A DNA stretch of 58,754 nt from a virus: the IMG/VR virus record IMGVR_UViG_3300046642_000452, positions 1 through 58,754 of that record, one strand, 5' to 3'. Positions 10,899 to 37,634 of this stretch are shown here, in pieces; the stretch's first letter is position 1, and each line of letters opens with the position of its first letter. Under the pieces are notes generated by a model. That model saw only the letters and a program-made list of their open reading frames with translations. It ran no database searches and had not been told where the DNA came from. The position numbers and the translations under genes are program-made.

Positions 10899-12026
10899 AT
10901 GGCTATCGTCCAGCGGTTTTTCTCTACGAGCAGCGCCGGAGCTGCGGACGGCACGACGTGGGCTGATCGCGCCGTGCTGTTCAACGGAAGTAATCAGTGG
11001 TCAACGATTATCACCGGATTCGATTTCAGCGGATCGGACTCGCTTCAGTGTCTCATTGGTCCCGGAAACTATGCCTGCGCGCAATCCCTGAGTGGATCGC
11101 TGTTTAGTAATCCCCCCACGCTAGCGAATCCAATATTTTTAACGGGCTGCGATTCAAGCGGAGTCTTACTAGCTATCCCAGACCCGAATTGGACAAGCGC
11201 TGAGCCAGCATGGGACGATTCGACACTGCCTATCATCAGCACGGCCGTTGACATACTGACGCTATCATTTGCTTCGGCCAATACCTGCTACGTCTACCTT
11301 CTGAAGTTCACGGCGACAGTTAATAGCACGCTCGTCATCAACACGGCGACATTGACGTGGTGCGTGGTTACGTCGTCATCTCCCGGAAATAACGTGAGAT
11401 GTGCGCTGCTCAGCAATCTAACCGTCGGCTGCGTGTTCACCATTACGAGCAATAGCTATCTGGCTGTTCTTCAGTCTCCAGCCGATCTCATTAACTGTCG
11501 CGTTGAAGGCAATCCAGCGGCGTCTGATGACGCGCACGGTGTCATCTACACGGGATCTGTCGGTCGGATTACCAGGTCAACGATTGTGAACAATGCTGGC
11601 AGCGCGATCTACGATTTCTTCGACAGCAGCAGCTCCTACTATCTCCAGCGTTGCGTATTGGCCAACAACAACGGGTACGGGGCGCGGACGCATGGCGGCA
11701 GCATTGACGCGCATTCACTGATGGTCACAGGAAACGGTGCCTACGGCCTCTACGGTGTCGCGGGTGGGCGGTTCGTGATTGACCATAACAGGCTCAGAGA
11801 CAACACATCTGGGAACACGACCGGCTTTGGTAATTATCCCCTTCTCAACGATGATACATCGGCTGGGTCTGACGGGGCAGAATACGTCTCGGCAGGAGCC
11901 AATGGGGATTTTCGGATTAAGAATACGAGCACGTTGTGGGACAAAGGATATGGCGTCACTGACGAGCCCGCGGCAGCCAGTGCGTCTGGAACATCTGGCA
12001 TCATCGGTGATGGATCAACATGGTAA
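10899..12026 (+). CDS. Beta-helix tailspike-like protein
   Basis: The 375-aa product shows a repetitive pattern of short hydrophobic strands separated by Asn/Asp/Ser/Gly turns (for example HSLMVTGNGAYGLYGVAGGR near residue 270), as in right-handed parallel beta-helices. Cys residues are scattered through it. Its base composition is visibly lower in GC than the flanking genes, which suggests recent acquisition. A receptor-binding or capsule-degrading spike role is inferred. The gene overlaps the next by 7 bases. Confidence 0.65.
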   Translation: MAIVQRFFSTSSAGAADGTTWADRAVLFNGSNQWSTIITGFDFSGSDSLQCLIGPGNYACAQSLSGSLFSNPPTLANPIFLTGCDSSGVLLAIPDPNWTSAEPAWDDSTLPIISTAVDILTLSFASANTCYVYLLKFTATVNSTLVINTATLTWCVVTSSSPGNNVRCALLSNLTVGCVFTITSNSYLAVLQSPADLINCRVEGNPAASDDAHGVIYTGSVGRITRSTIVNNAGSAIYDFFDSSSSYYLQRCVLANNNGYGARTHGGSIDAHSLMVTGNGAYGLYGVAGGRFVIDHNRLRDNTSGNTTGFGNYPLLNDDTSAGSDGAEYVSAGANGDFRIKNTSTLWDKGYGVTDEPAAASASGTSGIIGDGSTW

Positions 12027-12394
12027 AACTCATCTGGCGTTTCCTCATGGCGTCACTCTTCATGGCCTCGACGGCTGCGGCGGCAGACCTGAAGGTGCAG
12101 TGGCAGCAAAACGCGGCGGCTGAAGGCGTCACGAATTACAATGTGACCATTGACGCGCTCGCTCCAGTGGTCGTACCGAATATCGTGAACACCACGTGTA
12201 ATTGTGTCCAACTGATTGCGACATTTGCGACTGGCCCACACGTCGTCAGGATTTCCGCTGTGGCACCCCTCATCACAGGGATCGCCGTCGATGGCGTCAC
12301 TCAGGCCGACGAAGTAGCAGAGAGTGCGCCCGCCACACTCACCTTTACGCTCAATCCTGGCGGTCAGATCAAGAATGTCACGGTGAAGAAGTAA
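12020..12394 (+). CDS. Secreted fibronectin-III-like small protein
   Basis: The 124-aa product starts with a clear signal peptide (basic start, then a hydrophobic core with an AAAAD cleavage region at residues 18-23). The mature part is beta-rich with a VQWQQN start and a HVVRISA strand, reminiscent of an Fn3-type fold. It would be exported by the host Sec system, so a periplasmic or surface role late in infection is likely. It could act in host-surface remodelling or superinfection exclusion; nothing shows which. Confidence 0.65.
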   Translation: MVKLIWRFLMASLFMASTAAAADLKVQWQQNAAAEGVTNYNVTIDALAPVVVPNIVNTTCNCVQLIATFATGPHVVRISAVAPLITGIAVDGVTQADEVAESAPATLTFTLNPGGQIKNVTVKK

Positions 12395-16533: not shown

Positions 16534-17181
16534 TCATACCGTAGCCTCGTCAGCCTTCTTTGCGCGCCGCGGCTTCTCGTCCGCATTCTCAAGCGGCAAC
16601 ACAGTCTGCTGTTGCTCGAAGGTCACGAACAACTGCTCGGTGTACGCGCTGAAGATGAACAGCAGTTCATCGGGAGCCGGATAGCGCATCTTGACCTTGA
16701 GTCGCGCCGAGAGAATCGGCCCTTCCTTGTCGGCGCGGACCTTGATCGTGTTGTCCACCTCGACATCGTCGAAGACGTGCGCCCCGGGCGCATCCGGCGC
16801 GGTGCGAACCGCCATGCGCTGTGGTGCGACCGCGATCTTCATCTTGCAGTCGATGATCAGGTCGTTCGGTTCCCCGCTGCTGTTCTCGAACAGGTCGGTG
16901 CCGAGGCCGAGGTCGTCAGCCATCTCGCGCGTGAACGGCTGCGCCATGAAATCCAGCGTGAGAGTCTTGCGTGTTTCGTCGTCCACGGTTTCGACGCCTG
17001 GACGGATGTCGCGGAGGTAGAGCGGTTGCTGCGGTCTGAACATGTGCGGTCCTTTGGTTGGCTGCTGTTTCCGGCGACGGGCTTGGGCGCGGCGTTCTTT
17101 CGGTGTGTAGCCCCAGACGTCGTAGGTGCCATCGAGCACCTTCGGATGGTCCGGCGCGAAGATGGGCGGATACTCACTCAC
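16534..17181 (-). CDS. Conserved-looking protein of recombination operon, function unknown
   Basis: The 215-aa product starts with GTG overlapping the stop of the PEP-CTERM gene (GTGA). It is beta-rich in the middle (IIDCKMKIAVAPQRMAVRT, then SARLKVKMRYP) and ends in a basic Lys/Arg/Ala tail. Lying just before the exonuclease and ATPase, it could be a DNA-binding or single-strand-binding accessory, but I see no OB-fold signature I can name. An internal ATG (MFRPQQ, about residue 48) is a possible shorter start. Confidence 0.65.
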   Translation of the reverse strand: MSEYPPIFAPDHPKVLDGTYDVWGYTPKERRAQARRRKQQPTKGPHMFRPQQPLYLRDIRPGVETVDDETRKTLTLDFMAQPFTREMADDLGLGTDLFENSSGEPNDLIIDCKMKIAVAPQRMAVRTAPDAPGAHVFDDVEVDNTIKVRADKEGPILSARLKVKMRYPAPDELLFIFSAYTEQLFVTFEQQQTVLPLENADEKPRRAKKADEATV

Positions 17182-17906
17182 GGACGGCGTCTCAGGCGTG
17201 CGGCAATGCCGACGAGGCCGATGCCGAAGAGACAGAGCGCGCCTGGCTCCGGCACGGGGTCGATGCTGCGCGAATCTGGCCGAGCCACGATCGCGATCAC
17301 GGCCGTGTCCCAGCAACTCGCCAGTCCGTAGTCGCAGTGGAACGGCTGGCTTTGCGGCACGCCGTCCTGAAGGAGTGCCGGCGTGCCCATAAACACGTCC
17401 GCGTTCTGAAACGGGTTCGGCAGGCACCGCGGCGCCGTGTTGTGTCCCTCGATGTCAGCCCAGAAGCTCCCACAGGGCGCTTGATGCACGTTGTCCGCGT
17501 AACCGAACAACAGCGTGAAGGCGTCATCGCTATAGACTTCGACGAGTCCATGCGCTTCGTTGAAGCCTGACCCGGCCGAGGTTTCATTGGCCGTGAGGAT
17601 GTGCCCGAAGTCTGGAACCGTATGAATCACGCCATCAATCACGACCTGCGCGACGGCGATGTCACCGCCGTAGTCCGACAGGTCGAAGTTGTAACTCGCG
17701 AACTGGCTCGGACCATGCTGATCGTCCTGCGCCAGCACGAGGGATTGTCCGGCGGCGAGCGTGACGGGCAACGCCCAGCCGACCGTGGCGGCGTTGAACG
17801 TGCTGGTGCCGACCGTCACGGTGACGGCCTGCACGGTGATGGGACCGGCGCTCACGAGGCGTGGCAGGCCCAGCAGCGCAACGATGAGGAGTAGACGTGT
17901 CTTCAC
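17178..17906 (-). CDS. Secreted PEP-CTERM protein
   Basis: The 242-aa product starts with GTG after AGGGAG and has a signal peptide (KTRLLLIVALLGLPRLVSAG). It ends with a textbook PEP-CTERM sorting signal: VPEPG, a hydrophobic helix (ALCLFGIGLVGIAA) and a basic RLRRRP end. In bacteria such proteins are cut and anchored by an exosortase of the outer-envelope/EPS system. The mature region is beta-rich with Cys pairs and is clearly related to the product of the gene just upstream (shared GW-LPV-L-AG and YADN motifs). A host surface-modifying role during infection is inferred. Confidence 0.8.
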   Translation of the reverse strand: MKTRLLLIVALLGLPRLVSAGPITVQAVTVTVGTSTFNAATVGWALPVTLAAGQSLVLAQDDQHGPSQFASYNFDLSDYGGDIAVAQVVIDGVIHTVPDFGHILTANETSAGSGFNEAHGLVEVYSDDAFTLLFGYADNVHQAPCGSFWADIEGHNTAPRCLPNPFQNADVFMGTPALLQDGVPQSQPFHCDYGLASCWDTAVIAIVARPDSRSIDPVPEPGALCLFGIGLVGIAARLRRRP

Positions 17907-17919
17907 TGATGTCTCCCTT

Positions 17920-18510
17920 CTAGTGCTCGTGTGGCGTGTTGGGATCTGGGATGTCGGTGTTGGTGATGCGGATCGCGGGCGCACGCCAGCACGTTGGGGC
18001 GCCCCATCGGCAGATGTTCGCCGGCAGCGCCTCCGTGCCAGGCTCGCGGAACGTCGATTCGCCTTGAAAATACGTCGGCGCGAAGAAATCCAGCGGGAAG
18101 CATTCCAGCAAGACGCACGGTGCGGGCGTCCAGTTGTCCGCGTAACTGACCCACACGTCGATGTTGCCGACCCGATAGACCAACTCCCATTCGACGCCGC
18201 GGTTGCCGACTGGCCGTCCGAACAGCACACGGTTCCGATCAAAGATCGGCCGCTGCGTCCCGTCGATGGTGACGAGCACGACCGGCATGGACGTCGGCGG
18301 TAGGTCGAAATTGAATCGTGGCGTCTGCGTCAGGATGACACTCTCTCCAGCACCGAGCTTGACGGGCAGTTGCCAGCCGAGCGCGGCCCCCTGGTAGATG
18401 TCCCAGCCGGACGCGAGGGTCACATCGTCCACCGTGAAGTCAGCGGCGGCAATCGGCGGGGCGAGCATGAACACGACGAACGCGACGGACCAAAGGATGC
18501 GGTTCACCAT
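17920..18510 (-). CDS. Secreted paralogue of the PEP-CTERM protein, lacking the sorting signal
   Basis: The 196-aa product has a signal peptide (ILWSVAFVVFMLAPPIAAAD). Its mature part aligns by eye with the downstream gene: LGWQLPVKLGAGESVILTQ against VGWALPVTLAAGQSLVLAQ, FNFDL in both, and YADNWTPAPC against YADNVHQAPC. It has no PEP-CTERM tail and ends in Asp/Pro/His residues, so it would be soluble in the periplasm or released. The two genes look like a tandem duplication with one copy anchored and one free. Function unknown. Confidence 0.75.
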   Translation of the reverse strand: MVNRILWSVAFVVFMLAPPIAAADFTVDDVTLASGWDIYQGAALGWQLPVKLGAGESVILTQTPRFNFDLPPTSMPVVLVTIDGTQRPIFDRNRVLFGRPVGNRGVEWELVYRVGNIDVWVSYADNWTPAPCVLLECFPLDFFAPTYFQGESTFREPGTEALPANICRWGAPTCWRAPAIRITNTDIPDPNTPHEH

Positions 18511-18545: not shown

Positions 18546-19259
18546 CTAGTCATTGAAGTAGCAGCGGCGTTGTCCGATGAGCGGAAACATGGGCTTCGGT
18601 TTCTCGATTGGTCTGGTGTCGTACTGCTGGTCGGCCTGGGCTGCGAGCGACCGCGCCGTGATGATGGGCGAGAGACCAGGCGAGAACGACATCGTGATGG
18701 TCATACCACTCGGCGACCCGGCATCAACGAGGCGTCGGACCTGGTCAATCGCCGCCTCCATCGCGCTCTCGTATTCGCGGCGCACCCACGAATTACTGAT
18801 ACCAATCGCCGGCATCAGAGGTGGGCGCCGAAGCGACCGATCGGGCCACGGTTCCTCCATTGGCTCGATCCCGACCCGTTCCAACGGCCGGATGATGCGT
18901 CTATCGCCCGCGCCGATCTCGACATACGCCTCGCCGAGCGGTCCCGTGAAATAGATCGTGGCCCTTCCACGCGGCTCGAATTTATAGATGGCGTCACCAC
19001 GGCCGATCGGGAGCTGAGAGACCTCGCTGGCATCCACCCTGATCAGTTCGTACAGCGTCACGCCCGAAAGACGAGTCTCGCGCACGAACCCACGGATGGT
19101 CGGCTCCGTCTCCGGCGCTGGCGGGAGCACGATGGGGTTATCGGCGAGCGTGACGCGCCAAAACTGCTCGGTTCGTGCTTCTCTGAGGCACGCCGAACAC
19201 CACGGCGAATTCAGCCCACGAACCCCCAAGCATCCATTGGTGGCGCATTTATTCGGCAC
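18546..19259 (-). CDS. Zinc-ribbon protein with C-terminal RRCYFND tag
   Basis: The 237-aa product starts at GTG 19259, six bases after GGAGG, and overlaps the previous gene by 11 bases. It opens with a Cys cluster (C-x4-C ... C-x2-C, residues 5-23) that fits a zinc ribbon. A long beta/alpha middle follows. The last 30 residues (QYDTRPIEKPKP then RRCYFND) match the end of the protein at 32259-32849. No enzyme motif is recognised. Confidence 0.7.
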   Translation of the reverse strand: MPNKCATNGCLGVRGLNSPWCSACLREARTEQFWRVTLADNPIVLPPAPETEPTIRGFVRETRLSGVTLYELIRVDASEVSQLPIGRGDAIYKFEPRGRATIYFTGPLGEAYVEIGAGDRRIIRPLERVGIEPMEEPWPDRSLRRPPLMPAIGISNSWVRREYESAMEAAIDQVRRLVDAGSPSGMTITMSFSPGLSPIITARSLAAQADQQYDTRPIEKPKPMFPLIGQRRCYFND

Positions 19260-19551
19260 TCGGCACCTCCGATCGCGCGACGTTCCGATCCGTCCAATCA
19301 CGGTCGTCCACCACGTCTTGCAGTTCCCGCCACAGCCTGTTACGCTCGCGCTTCGTCCGCACGGGGATACCGGCGAGCGACAGCACCTCGCGATAGCCAC
19401 GGCGGCGCGAGTCGTATTCCTCCAGCACGAGGCGCACACGATCAGGCTTGCGGGCGCGTTTAGGAAGTGCCGGGTCAAGGATGCGCGCGGCTAACTGGTC
19501 GGGGGTTTCCAGTTTGTTCAGCCGCACGCCTTTGTAGGGATTCGGCATCAT
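19249..19551 (-). CDS. Small basic protein of unknown function
   Basis: The 100-aa product begins MMPNPYKGVR at an ATG overlapping the stop of the SbcC-like gene (ATGA). It is Arg-rich and helical, with a KRERNRLWRELQDVVDDRDW segment. Size and charge suggest a DNA-binding helper. Family not recognised. Confidence 0.6.
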   Translation of the reverse strand: MMPNPYKGVRLNKLETPDQLAARILDPALPKRARKPDRVRLVLEEYDSRRRGYREVLSLAGIPVRTKRERNRLWRELQDVVDDRDWTDRNVARSEVPSAE

Positions 19552-21243: not shown

Positions 21244-22227
21244 CTACTCCAGGCCATAGGCCCGGCTCGGCCGGTTCGTCACGAGCGCGGCCGCCGCCTT
21301 GTCGATCTGCGCCACGGATTCAGCCACTCGGCGCCGGAGCGATCCGCGGTTGCGGAGGTCGCCCGCGTCCACCCCGCTCATGATGCGGCGGCCTTCCTGC
21401 ACCAGTGCGGCGAGTTCGGTATCGTTCGCCAGGTTGCGCTTGGAGAATGCCTCGGCGAATTCCTCAAAGTTCTTCACGAGCGAATCCCGGAACACCTTCG
21501 GCTTCCCGCTCTCGTCTGGCGTCAAGCGCTCGGCCAAGCGCGAGATCACCTCGGCAAACCCCAGACGGAGTGTCGCGCGGCATTCCTGCAACGCTTCCGC
21601 TTGCCACTGTGCGGCCGCCGCCGGATCGGTGTAGCCGAACGTCATGAAACTGCGCGTCATGCCAAAGGCCGCCGCCGCTTCCGACCGTTCCGGATACTGA
21701 ACATCCCACTTGAGCGATCCGAGACGCGCCCGCGTTTCCTCAATGCGGAGACTGTAGACTTCGAGGAACGCATCCACCAGATCGGCCCGTTCCGCCTCGC
21801 GCGCGTCGAGGTAGCGATCGATCTCCGGCTTGAGCACCAACGGCACGAGATGAAACCCCCCTTGGTTGGCGAATGCTGGCCCGGCTTTCTTGCTGTCCAC
21901 CCATCGCGCCGTTTCGCTGTCGTGACGCGCGATGGCGGCGAGTTCTGGCGAGTCAAGGATCTTCTTGGTGACACTGACAAGCGCCTTGTCGGTGTCCGTG
22001 TCGCTGGCGGTCTTCTTCACGTCGATCGCGTCGGTCTTCACCTTGCGCGAGATGCCCAGCCGGCGAAACTGAAGCTGTAACACCGTCGCCTTGGAGAAGA
22101 TATCGATCGGGTTGTCGGATGCCAGGGCCGGCATCGTGTCGACCTGATCCTGGAGTTCGTCAATCACCTGTCGCTTGCTCCATTCGGTTTCCACGCGCGC
22201 TGTCTCAAATAGTCCATCCGTGATCAT
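21244..22227 (-). CDS. DUF3150-like protein of the ATPase module
   Basis: The roughly 327-aa product is largely helical, with conserved-looking patches (VYSLRIEETRARLGSLKWDVQYP, FMTFGYTDPAAAAQW). Proteins of this type (DUF3150-like) are found near MoxR/CobS-type ATPases in phages, and here an AAA+ ATPase gene lies two genes upstream. The start at MITDGLF (ATG 22227 after GAGGAG) is preferred; an earlier ATG at 22254 is possible. The family assignment is tentative and the function unknown. Confidence 0.65.
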   Translation of the reverse strand: MITDGLFETARVETEWSKRQVIDELQDQVDTMPALASDNPIDIFSKATVLQLQFRRLGISRKVKTDAIDVKKTASDTDTDKALVSVTKKILDSPELAAIARHDSETARWVDSKKAGPAFANQGGFHLVPLVLKPEIDRYLDAREAERADLVDAFLEVYSLRIEETRARLGSLKWDVQYPERSEAAAAFGMTRSFMTFGYTDPAAAAQWQAEALQECRATLRLGFAEVISRLAERLTPDESGKPKVFRDSLVKNFEEFAEAFSKRNLANDTELAALVQEGRRIMSGVDAGDLRNRGSLRRRVAESVAQIDKAAAALVTNRPSRAYGLE

Positions 22228-22311
22228 GTGCTCCTCGCTTCCGGAAACGTCCATCGTTTCCCCAACCACCACGAGCCGCGCCCGTGGGGGAAGGGCACCC
22301 GATGACCGTCT

Positions 22312-22509
22312 TTAGTGCGTGTGCTCGGCGTGCGTGTGCGTGTGCGTGTGGTGTTCGTGCCTCGCTTTCTTCGTCACCGGGCCGCCGGCCAGCGTGGACA
22401 GGTCTTTCATAAACGCTTCGGCGCTCTGATGGTTGGGTCCGCTGATCGGGTCCGTGGTCGTCTTAATGGTCCCATCCGCGAGAATTTCGATCCGCATGAT
22501 GTCAGGCAT
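22312..22509 (-). CDS. DUF2997-like small protein with polyhistidine tail
   Basis: The 65-aa product begins MPDIMRIEILADGTIKTTTD, which fits the short beta-rich DUF2997 pattern, and starts eight bases after GGAG. It ends in a His/Thr/Glu tract (HEHHTHTHTHAEHTH) encoded by a GTGCGT-type dinucleotide repeat at 22317-22355. DUF2997 proteins accompany Ycf46-like ATPases and Ycf35/DUF1257 proteins, as here. The His tail could bind metal. Confidence 0.65.
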   Translation of the reverse strand: MPDIMRIEILADGTIKTTTDPISGPNHQSAEAFMKDLSTLAGGPVTKKARHEHHTHTHTHAEHTH

Positions 22510-22679
22510 TAGGGAAGCTCCAATCCGTGCGCCACCTCGGCGCGAAATCTCGCTTTCCACTCCGCGCGTATCAATCGCCCAAAGACGATGCCCCACCGCG
22601 CGAACGACAGCCGGCGCGCCAGCAACCGCTCACACCTCGCGATCGTCTGTGCCGGCGTCCGATAGTGCCGGCGGTTCAT
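22509..22679 (-). CDS. 56-aa basic protein
   Basis: This small gene starts at an ATG overlapping the upstream stop (ATGA) and its TAA overlaps the next ATG (TAATG), so it fills its slot exactly. The product is Arg-rich and helical with one Cys (TIARCERLLARRL). Function unknown. Confidence 0.6.
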   Translation of the reverse strand: MNRRHYRTPAQTIARCERLLARRLSFARWGIVFGRLIRAEWKARFRAEVAHGLELP

Positions 22680-22981
22680 TTCGTCACCTCATACGCAAAG
22701 TCGGTCACTTTCTTGATCGTCCAGCCGTTCCGCTGCGCGGTGTACTTCACCGCTTCCGCGGAGTACGCCCGCTTCACCGTATCGGCCAGGTGTTCCGATC
22801 CTTCCTCCACGGTAAACTTCCCGCCGCGGATCGTGCATGGCTTGCCTTCCAGCGTGAAGTACGCGCCCGTCGAATCCACGTAGACCCCACGAGCCCCGAG
22901 CGCGTACAGCGCGCGCTTGAGAAGCGCCGCGTTCATGGTGCCGATGGTGACTGAGTTCGTGATGACCTGATCGCACGGCAT
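22676..22981 (-). CDS. DUF1257/Ycf35-like protein
   Basis: The 101-aa product has the layout of the Ycf35/DUF1257 family: a short strand with IT-S-V-TIG, a helix (LLKRALYALG), then strands and a C-terminal NGWTIKK strand. It sits two bases after the Ycf46-like ATPase gene and two genes before the DUF2997-like gene, the usual company of this family. Probably an ATPase partner. Family call is by pattern and context. Confidence 0.65.
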   Translation of the reverse strand: MPCDQVITNSVTIGTMNAALLKRALYALGARGVYVDSTGAYFTLEGKPCTIRGGKFTVEEGSEHLADTVKRAYSAEAVKYTAQRNGWTIKKVTDFAYEVTK

Positions 22982-22983
22982 GA

Positions 22984-24555
22984 TTACGAATCTCCATAGA
23001 GTCGCGTCGGCAACGCGTGAAATTGTTCTTTCGTGGGCAGTGTGCCAGGCGTCACGGTGCCGGCGTTGTGCTTGTAGGGGCCGGCATAGCTGGCACTGAG
23101 GAACTTGCCGCTCGCCTGCTGGCGCAACGCTTCGATCGCTTGCGGCGCCGAGGTCGCGATCGGCACGATCGACTTCGCCGCATCCACGAGCGAGCAGCGC
23201 CGCCGATAGGCCAGTCGGCAGCAATTCCGAATCTCGGCCCCGGTCCAGTTGCGATCGTTCGGCCGGGTGGCGTCGGCCGCGTGGCCAAACTTCGCGAGAT
23301 GCACCGGCCAGATCGCCGCCTTCTCTTCGTCGGAGCACAGATCGAAGTACCAGATCCCATCCGTGAACCGGCGGATCAAGTCGGGCGTGATGACGCCGGC
23401 CGAAATGTTGTTGCAGGTCGCGACGAAGTACGCATGAGGCCCCGCGACCGCCTTCACGACCTTCATGACGTTTCGGATCAGTCCTTCACTCCCGCCGACG
23501 AATTTGGTTTTCATCGATCCGAAGTCAAAGCTGAACGTCGGCGCGCCGTACGTATTCCCGATCGATTGGCTGATCGCGGTCTTGCCGCTCCCGGGCGGCC
23601 CCACGGCAATAAACCCGGTCCACCCGTTATCCTCCATCTCTCGAAGGATGACGCCTTTCTGGTCTTGGCTCGTGCCTGAGGTATCGCCGGCCGCCCCGGC
23701 CATCATCTTTTCGATCTCGTCGAGGCGCACAATCACCCGCGGCGGTTCCGGTCCATCATAGATGGCGCGCCCGTGTCGCTTGATCTCGGCCAGGCCGCCG
23801 AGCATGTCAAACGTGAGTACGCCCTGATCCATCGCAAGCCCGGGCGTCTGGTTAATCAGTGCTCGCTTGCGCGCCCAGAGCCGATCCGGGTCCAGCCGGC
23901 CAGCGTTCAACGTGATAGCGACCGCCTGCTCTGCTGGAAAAGCGGCCAGGCCAGTCAAGGCCGCCACGGCACGCGCCTTCGTCGCCTCGTCTGGCGTCTC
24001 CGGCGGCGGCGTCATCGCTTGCGCGCTCGCAAGCTCCGTGTCGATGATGTCTCGAATCTGCGCCTCGGTCGGAAGCGGGTCATCCAAGACCAAGACATCT
24101 TGAACAAGCTGCGCCGGCAGACTGATCGCCGCATCCAAGAGAATCAAGCAGCGCCCGTCAGCCTTGAACGTGTCGCGGAGATTGCACACCGCCTGCACGA
24201 CCTGGGGATTGTCGAGCAGGCATTGGGCGTTGTGCACGAGGAGCACAGAGCGCCTGGGGAGCTTCACCGCGGCCGCCAACGCTTCCGCCGGAGAGGTCAG
24301 CACCGGCCCGCCGCTCGAGGCCATGACATCATCGCCAGGAGTCAAGGCGCCGGCTGCCTCCAGGCCGGAGTCATTCAGCCCGACCACCCCGCGAACGATG
24401 TCATGTTGCAAGATCGGCGGGGCGGTCTTATCGCTGCCGGCTTTCGCGGCCACGATGGCCGCCACAAGCGCCGGCGGGTCCGGCGTCGTGATGCCGAGCA
24501 GTGGCGTCGCCACCATCCGCGCGGCCCGGAGTTCGTCAATCAGTCCATTGGTCAC
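22984..24555 (-). CDS. Ycf46-like AAA+ ATPase with Walker B ahead of Walker A
   Basis: The 523-aa product starts at GTG 24555, seven bases after GGAGG. Residues 90-170 match the degenerate N-terminal half of Ycf46-type ATPases (LLVHNAQCLLD ... VLDDPLPTEAQI). The active AAA+ half is unusual: a Walker B-like VIVRLDEIEK with its GDTSGTSQDQKGVILREMEDN follow-on is at residues 274-310, before Walker A (GPPGSGKT, 319-326). Between Walker A and sensor 1 (ATCNN, 379-383) no second Walker B is present; the arginine finger region RRF is at 395-397. It probably remodels a protein or DNA complex with the DUF1257- and DUF2997-like partners. Confidence 0.82.
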   Translation of the reverse strand: MTNGLIDELRAARMVATPLLGITTPDPPALVAAIVAAKAGSDKTAPPILQHDIVRGVVGLNDSGLEAAGALTPGDDVMASSGGPVLTSPAEALAAAVKLPRRSVLLVHNAQCLLDNPQVVQAVCNLRDTFKADGRCLILLDAAISLPAQLVQDVLVLDDPLPTEAQIRDIIDTELASAQAMTPPPETPDEATKARAVAALTGLAAFPAEQAVAITLNAGRLDPDRLWARKRALINQTPGLAMDQGVLTFDMLGGLAEIKRHGRAIYDGPEPPRVIVRLDEIEKMMAGAAGDTSGTSQDQKGVILREMEDNGWTGFIAVGPPGSGKTAISQSIGNTYGAPTFSFDFGSMKTKFVGGSEGLIRNVMKVVKAVAGPHAYFVATCNNISAGVITPDLIRRFTDGIWYFDLCSDEEKAAIWPVHLAKFGHAADATRPNDRNWTGAEIRNCCRLAYRRRCSLVDAAKSIVPIATSAPQAIEALRQQASGKFLSASYAGPYKHNAGTVTPGTLPTKEQFHALPTRLYGDS

Positions 24556-37031: not shown

Positions 37032-37634
37032 ATGAACACGATGCCGAATCGGTACTACTACGTCGCCGATCTCTGTATGCAGAACGCCGCGAACAACAAC
37101 TTCACGCTCAACGGAGAGAAGGTCGCGTTTCCGCAGGGGCCAGAGAACGACGCGTATCGGCTCACCTTCCTGACCACCGTCGTCATCCCGCATCTGAACA
37201 CGCTGGACAACGGCGAATGGGGACTCTGCACCAAGACCGAGCAGGGCAACAAAGTCCCCTGCGATATTCTCATGTGGCGCAGCACACGCGAGCTTGTCGA
37301 TTGCCTGACCGGGGTCGGCGCCGCGTGGCAGACGTTCAGTAGCCCGCCGCCGGACTCGTGGGTCTGGACGCCTGTGGATGGATCGGTACCCCCTGTTCAA
37401 CCGCCCATCACGCCCGTGCCGCCCACGCTGGCCTACAACGAAGGCGAGGTCAACGGATTCCTGGCCGATGAGATCGGTGCCTACGCCGAGGCGGGCCGTG
37501 AACTGGACGCGCAGTACCCGATCTGGTGCGCCCGGATGCAGTACGACGCCTTCGCGATGGGCTACACTGCCGCCCGGTCGAAACAGCTCGCGGAGTGCCG
37601 GAAGGCGCTCGGCTTGCCGCCCGTGAGCATCTGA
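37032..37634 (+). CDS. 200-aa protein of unknown function
   Basis: The ATG has GGAGAG upstream. Residues 1-105 are an alpha/beta domain with several Cys (YYVADLCMQNAANNNFTL ...). A Pro-rich linker (VPPVQPPITPVPP) leads to a helical C-terminal part. Encoded between packaging and portal genes; possibly a minor virion protein. No enzyme motif seen. Confidence 0.6.
   Translation: MNTMPNRYYYVADLCMQNAANNNFTLNGEKVAFPQGPENDAYRLTFLTTVVIPHLNTLDNGEWGLCTKTEQGNKVPCDILMWRSTRELVDCLTGVGAAWQTFSSPPPDSWVWTPVDGSVPPVQPPITPVPPTLAYNEGEVNGFLADEIGAYAEAGRELDAQYPIWCARMQYDAFAMGYTAARSKQLAECRKALGLPPVSI

Follow-up and report, generated by a model that had tools for sequence, protein, structure and literature searches.

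A phage-encoded PEP-CTERM protein and its tail-less paralogue, with evidence that PEP-CTERM genes recur in viral contigs

Exosortase substrates leave the cytoplasm through Sec, are retained by the PEP-CTERM helix, undergo processing and end up outside Gram-negative cells, possibly together with polysaccharide (PMC12188702). Floc formation requires PEP-CTERM proteins, which attach polysaccharide to cells (PMC9850573; PMC12188702). In general, exosortase substrates are viewed as bacterial surface proteins. An exported phage protein of another kind is Llp of T5, a small lipoprotein that blocks a receptor (PMC9586334). The open-access full text searched yielded no paper treating phage-encoded PEP-CTERM proteins as one class, an absence that is provisional, as subscription papers and preprints fall mostly outside that scope.

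The window analysed here is a viral contig of 58,754 bases, and its genes include a large terminase, a P22-type portal, a scaffold, a P22-type coat, head-closure proteins, a DNA-ejection match, an exonuclease VIII and an SbcC-like ATPase. It is a genuine tailed phage whose head genes are of P22 type; no integrase was seen in the part of the gene set that was searched. Two adjacent genes, g19 (17178..17906) and g20 (17920..18510), are located among the recombination genes (exonuclease VIII, SbcC-like ATPase). An earlier note had placed them at these positions without giving a strand; both are present, and both are on the minus strand. The reading order is thus 18510 to 17920, followed after 13 bases by 17906 to 17178, with g19 overlapping the next gene (16534-17181) by 4 bases. 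Given this spacing, the good ribosome-binding sites and the overlap, the block looks like a single operon. In codon-position GC the pair matches the other phage genes (GC3 0.79 and 0.82, against 0.79).

The g19 gene encodes a secreted protein of 242 amino acids, comprising a signal peptide (17847..17906, minus strand), an ectodomain of about 190 residues and a complete PEP-CTERM sorting tail, VPEPGALCLFGIGLVGIAARLRRRP. Its start codon is a GTG with a ribosome-binding site, AGAAGGGAG, upstream; the open frame extends as far as 18242, through g20 DNA in another frame only, and the GTG at 17906 is the sensible start. The signal peptides of both proteins were called from hydropathy and AxA-type cleavage sites. 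That of g19, VKTRLLLIVALLGLPRLVSA, has a basic start, a hydrophobic core (heuristic hydropathy 3.29) and an LVSA-GP site, with the cut predicted after VSA and the mature protein beginning with GP. No lipobox cysteine follows the signal peptide in either g19 (VSA-GPITV) or g20 (AAA-DFTV). A hydropathy screen of the 92 predicted genes flagged four N-termini, and only g19 and g20 have the look of cleavable signal peptides. Below the threshold of that screen, a small protein at 12020-12394, close to where the plus-strand block ends, has a signal-peptide-like start, MVKLIWRFLMASLFMASTAAAADL, and looks exported; it belongs to no convincing family.

The PEP-CTERM motif of g19 (17187..17258, minus strand) consists of VPEP, a hydrophobic helix and the basic end RLRRRP, and the protein terminates in DPVPEPGALCLFGIGLVGIAARLRRRP, with a C-terminal hydropathy maximum of 1.94 at residue 222. 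Both relevant models score above their cut-offs (PF07589, 30.2 bits against a gathering threshold of 20.7, E 4e-7; TIGR02595, 17.7 bits against 16), and the earlier description of a signal peptide and a complete PEP-CTERM end thus holds. In a six-frame PF07589 search this tail was the sole match in the window (E 1.9e-9), so that a chance match is not a credible explanation. Models of PEP-CTERM families match g19 essentially at the C-terminal end only and far below their cut-offs, and the ectodomain falls in no described family. Family-profile and fold searches returned no family or structural match for it, although the fold searches carry no meaning, because the AlphaFold2 model, built from four sequences, is poor (mean pLDDT 54).

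The neighbouring g20 encodes 196 amino acids, with a ribosome-binding site, AGAAGGAG, and a signal peptide, MVNRILWSVAFVVFMLAPPIAAA, assigned on hydropathy. Judged by sequence it is a true paralogue of g19, with 27% identity over 200 columns (BLASTP, E 2e-16) and homology across the ectodomain. The tail is absent: neither PF07589 nor TIGR02595 matches, the C-terminal hydropathy maximum is 0.25, and the protein ends in IPDPNTPHEH at the position of the PEP motif of g19 (VPEPGALC...). The E value and the missing PEP-CTERM match bear out the view that the neighbour is a related secreted protein lacking the tail. PADLOC models matched the pair with no family at E values up to 1, and PHROGs holds no family for it.

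The pair occupies a variable cargo slot. Its right border is a conserved phage gene directly downstream of g19 (16534..17181, minus strand), and its left border is the gene directly upstream of g20 (18546..19130, minus strand; gene prediction). The record IMGVR_UViG_3300036852_000463 is collinear with the window along the greater part of the genome (coat 89%, portal 74% and terminase 65% identical) and keeps homologues of 16534-17181 (55% identical) and 19249-19551, as well as of several genes in the interval 21244-24555; a C-terminus similar by eye to that of the left-border gene is found at the same place (L086, 3598-4272). The g19/g20 pair is absent from this record, no PEP-CTERM match occurs anywhere in it, and other small genes fill the slot interval, which argues that the pair behaves as mobile cargo.

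Single-protein scans of viral contigs returned no relative of g19 or g20, whereas a two-row alignment search of viral contigs identified two full-length homologues of g19. These sequences, from L093 and L094, are 68% and 67% identical to g19 (about 70% over the matched part), and both retain the signal peptide and the tail. Each lies in the interval from terminase to portal and is read from the same strand as both. The portals of these contigs are only 25-28% identical to that of the window, which indicates that phage lineages have exchanged the gene. L093 and L094 differ from one another at 59 synonymous and 7 non-synonymous positions (dN/dS 0.03), and window g19 compared with either gives a dN/dS of 0.16-0.18 with synonymous sites nearly saturated. 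At the codon level the anchored protein is under strong purifying selection, tail included. Because g19 lies in a recombination-gene setting in the window and its homologues in a packaging-gene setting, position singles out no function.

Directly after the PEP-CTERM gene in these two contigs, with a 4-base overlap, are homologues (L093 2268-2819; L094 5408-5971) of a family-less window gene at 37032-37634, which in the window is 19 kb from g19 and near the portal. It is possible that its product is a functional partner of the PEP-CTERM protein.

A homologue of g20 was found in no other contig sampled, and L093 and L094, both fragments, show the anchored form only. A tail-less homologous neighbour was likewise not found in other sampled phages with PEP-CTERM genes, with the window serving as positive control. 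The earlier note had proposed looking for the same gene pair in related phages, and on these results the combination of an anchored and a free form is not a conserved module. Since g20 is so far unique to this contig, no model should lean on the tail-less copy. Outside L093 and L094, phage and plasmid collections contained no homologue of the g19 or g20 ectodomain, a GTDB pattern scan with the pair gave none, and an ectodomain profile found none in 1157 bacterial genomes of three groups (396 + 369 + 392), a weak negative in that no positive genome is known.

PEP-CTERM tails themselves are considerably more widespread. Viral contigs were scanned with a degenerate DNA pattern for VPEP-x4-[LF]-[LF]-G-x-G-[LF]; among the matches listed, at least 79 are in frame and at least 76 end within 40 residues and have a hydrophobic N-terminus, counts that are approximate and include some short frames. 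The ectodomains among these matches form families of at least 24, 13, 5 and fewer members, with many singletons, and the g19 family is separate. The family of at least 24 comprises related PEP-CTERM proteins of about 211-234 amino acids (L143, L156, L175, L142, L166 and others), often near head or packaging genes. In 50 records checked among the matches listed, the PF07589 cut-off was passed in 49, a terminase match was obtained in 27 and a P22-type portal match, in some cases weak, in 18; as the terminase profile also matches prophage-bearing bacterial genomes, these counts indicate phage genes on the contig and not its purity. Adjacent PEP-CTERM gene pairs recur among the matches listed (L157, L159, L181, L186, L190 and L204), with both members tailed and no detectable homology between them. 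Three PEP-CTERM frames in a row are present at 3387-5353 of L152, a 5.5-kb viral contig that may be bacterial DNA.

The class is also present in a cultured phage. Tunturi_5 (PP885688.1), a jumbo phage with a Tunturiibacter (Acidobacteriota) host, encodes two PEP-CTERM proteins annotated as hypothetical, ORF97 and ORF179 (PF07589, 26.4 and 24.3 bits). Their genes are at 75107-75703 and 125878-126516, one among helicase genes and the other flanked by exonuclease and SbcD-like genes. The main text of the paper describing this phage does not mention PEP-CTERM (PMC11924767). Because Tunturi_5 was isolated and sequenced, contamination with cellular DNA cannot account for the class in its entirety.

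No recognisable exosortase was detected in the window or in 49 other viral records. This set of 50 overlaps the one checked for terminase and includes the collinear relative and Tunturi_5, and nearly all of its members carry PEP-CTERM genes. Predicted exosortase substrates without exosortases are therefore a recurrent phage cargo, found in many unrelated phage contigs and not peculiar to this phage. This breadth, which the earlier note underestimated, is the stronger of the results. The proposal of the earlier note that the phage copy would be sorted by a host enzyme is a sensible one, and with exosortase missing from these records, use of that of the host would be its natural form. In one candidate phylum, counted as background, 66 of 199 genomes carry an exosortase. 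Relatives of the window terminase in genomes are scattered over Planctomycetota, Acidobacteriota, Pseudomonadota and others, the best being 54% identical, and give no decisive pointer to the host. Terminase relatives L106 and L108 are in a MAG labelled Bathyarchaeota (isolate palsa_989), which is probably a binning problem or a case of phage contigs binned along.

We consider it probable that the pair is envelope-directed phage cargo, with the anchored form sorted by the host exosortase and the tail-less form released. Both proteins would be exported by the host Sec system. The PEP-CTERM tail would hold g19 in the inner membrane, where the host exosortase would process it, and the processed protein would then be directed, along with surface polysaccharide, to the outside of the cell; g20 would be released into the periplasm or the medium. 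Exosortase sorting of g19 is a natural expectation from the tail that it shares with exosortase substrates. As for what the displayed protein does, our first choice, a tentative one drawn from analogy with T5 Llp, is that it may reduce how well additional virions adsorb to the infected cell or its debris, through superinfection exclusion or receptor masking.

Ranked close behind exclusion or masking is the alternative that the protein becomes part of the extracellular polysaccharide around the infected cell and alters stickiness or clumping in favour of phage spread, with no receptor being blocked. Cellular PEP-CTERM proteins do bind polysaccharide to cells and are required for flocs (PMC9850573; PMC12188702), and the great diversity of phage PEP-CTERM ectodomains is expected of matrix proteins more than of one receptor blocker. 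However, family-profile searches recognised no polysaccharide-binding domain in the pair, and such matrix or aggregation control seems to us rather unlikely. A late or lysis-linked function, in which the exported protein would have its role in the envelope while virions assemble or the cell lyses, and not at the cell surface, is suggested by location in other phages. Among the matches listed, in the 28 records with a terminase or strong portal match, 20 have the PEP-CTERM gene no more than 5 kb from terminase or portal, against about 12 expected under uniform placement, although these records are not independent. In L139 it is 2 bases upstream of a P22-type portal with a coat gene downstream, and in L093 and L094 it occupies the terminase-portal interval. 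The window pair is instead among recombination genes and no lysis domain was recognised, which leaves a late function improbable.

Some bacteria carry PEP-CTERM genes in very large numbers, and the cassette moves between genomes and is missing from the nearest relative identified, as would be expected if the pair were recently captured bacterial genes of no benefit to the phage. The dN/dS values of 0.03-0.18 argue against such passengers, as do a codon-position composition like that of the phage and the failure to find an ectodomain homologue in the 1157 bacterial genomes, the GTDB pattern scan or plasmids; this origin is slightly less probable still than a late function. The record is a metagenomic virus contig, so a viral bin that took in cellular DNA, or an error of assembly, must also be weighed. 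The flanking genes, however, are collinear with a second phage contig, the composition matches, homologues are beside terminase and portal in other phage contigs, and an isolated phage has PEP-CTERM proteins; an artefact is accordingly very hard to credit. Exclusion or masking is retained as the first choice for the displayed protein, with a late function allowed for by the packaging-side location elsewhere.

More broadly, it is conceivable, if still somewhat doubtful, that many tailed phages, unrelated and independently of one another, have equipped diverse proteins with a PEP-CTERM tail for display on the infected cell by the host exosortase. Phages would then have a general, unrecognised means of reshaping the envelope of bacteria covered in polysaccharide, and the g19/g20 pair would be one elaboration of it. 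If phages commonly make PEP-CTERM proteins, exosortase would be a host factor for some of them, the tail would flag which phage proteins are bound for the surface, and a location could be assigned to one class of hypothetical phage genes.

Compared with described systems, g19 resembles T5 Llp in being small, exported and phage-encoded, and its place of action would be the infected cell's envelope. Unlike Llp, it has no lipobox cysteine and would follow a different sorting route, and the exclusion role is proposed by analogy. ORF97 and ORF179 of Tunturi_5 are likewise phage-encoded, with a signal-peptide-like N-terminus and a PF07589 tail, and there are two per genome; that phage, however, is a jumbo myovirus, and the two ectodomains are unrelated to g19 and to each other. 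From PEP-CTERM/exosortase substrates g19 differs in being encoded by a phage, in not being located beside exosortase or polysaccharide genes, and in having a second gene that is tail-less, whereas the signal peptide, the VPEP motif, the hydrophobic helix and the basic end at the extreme C-terminus are common to both.
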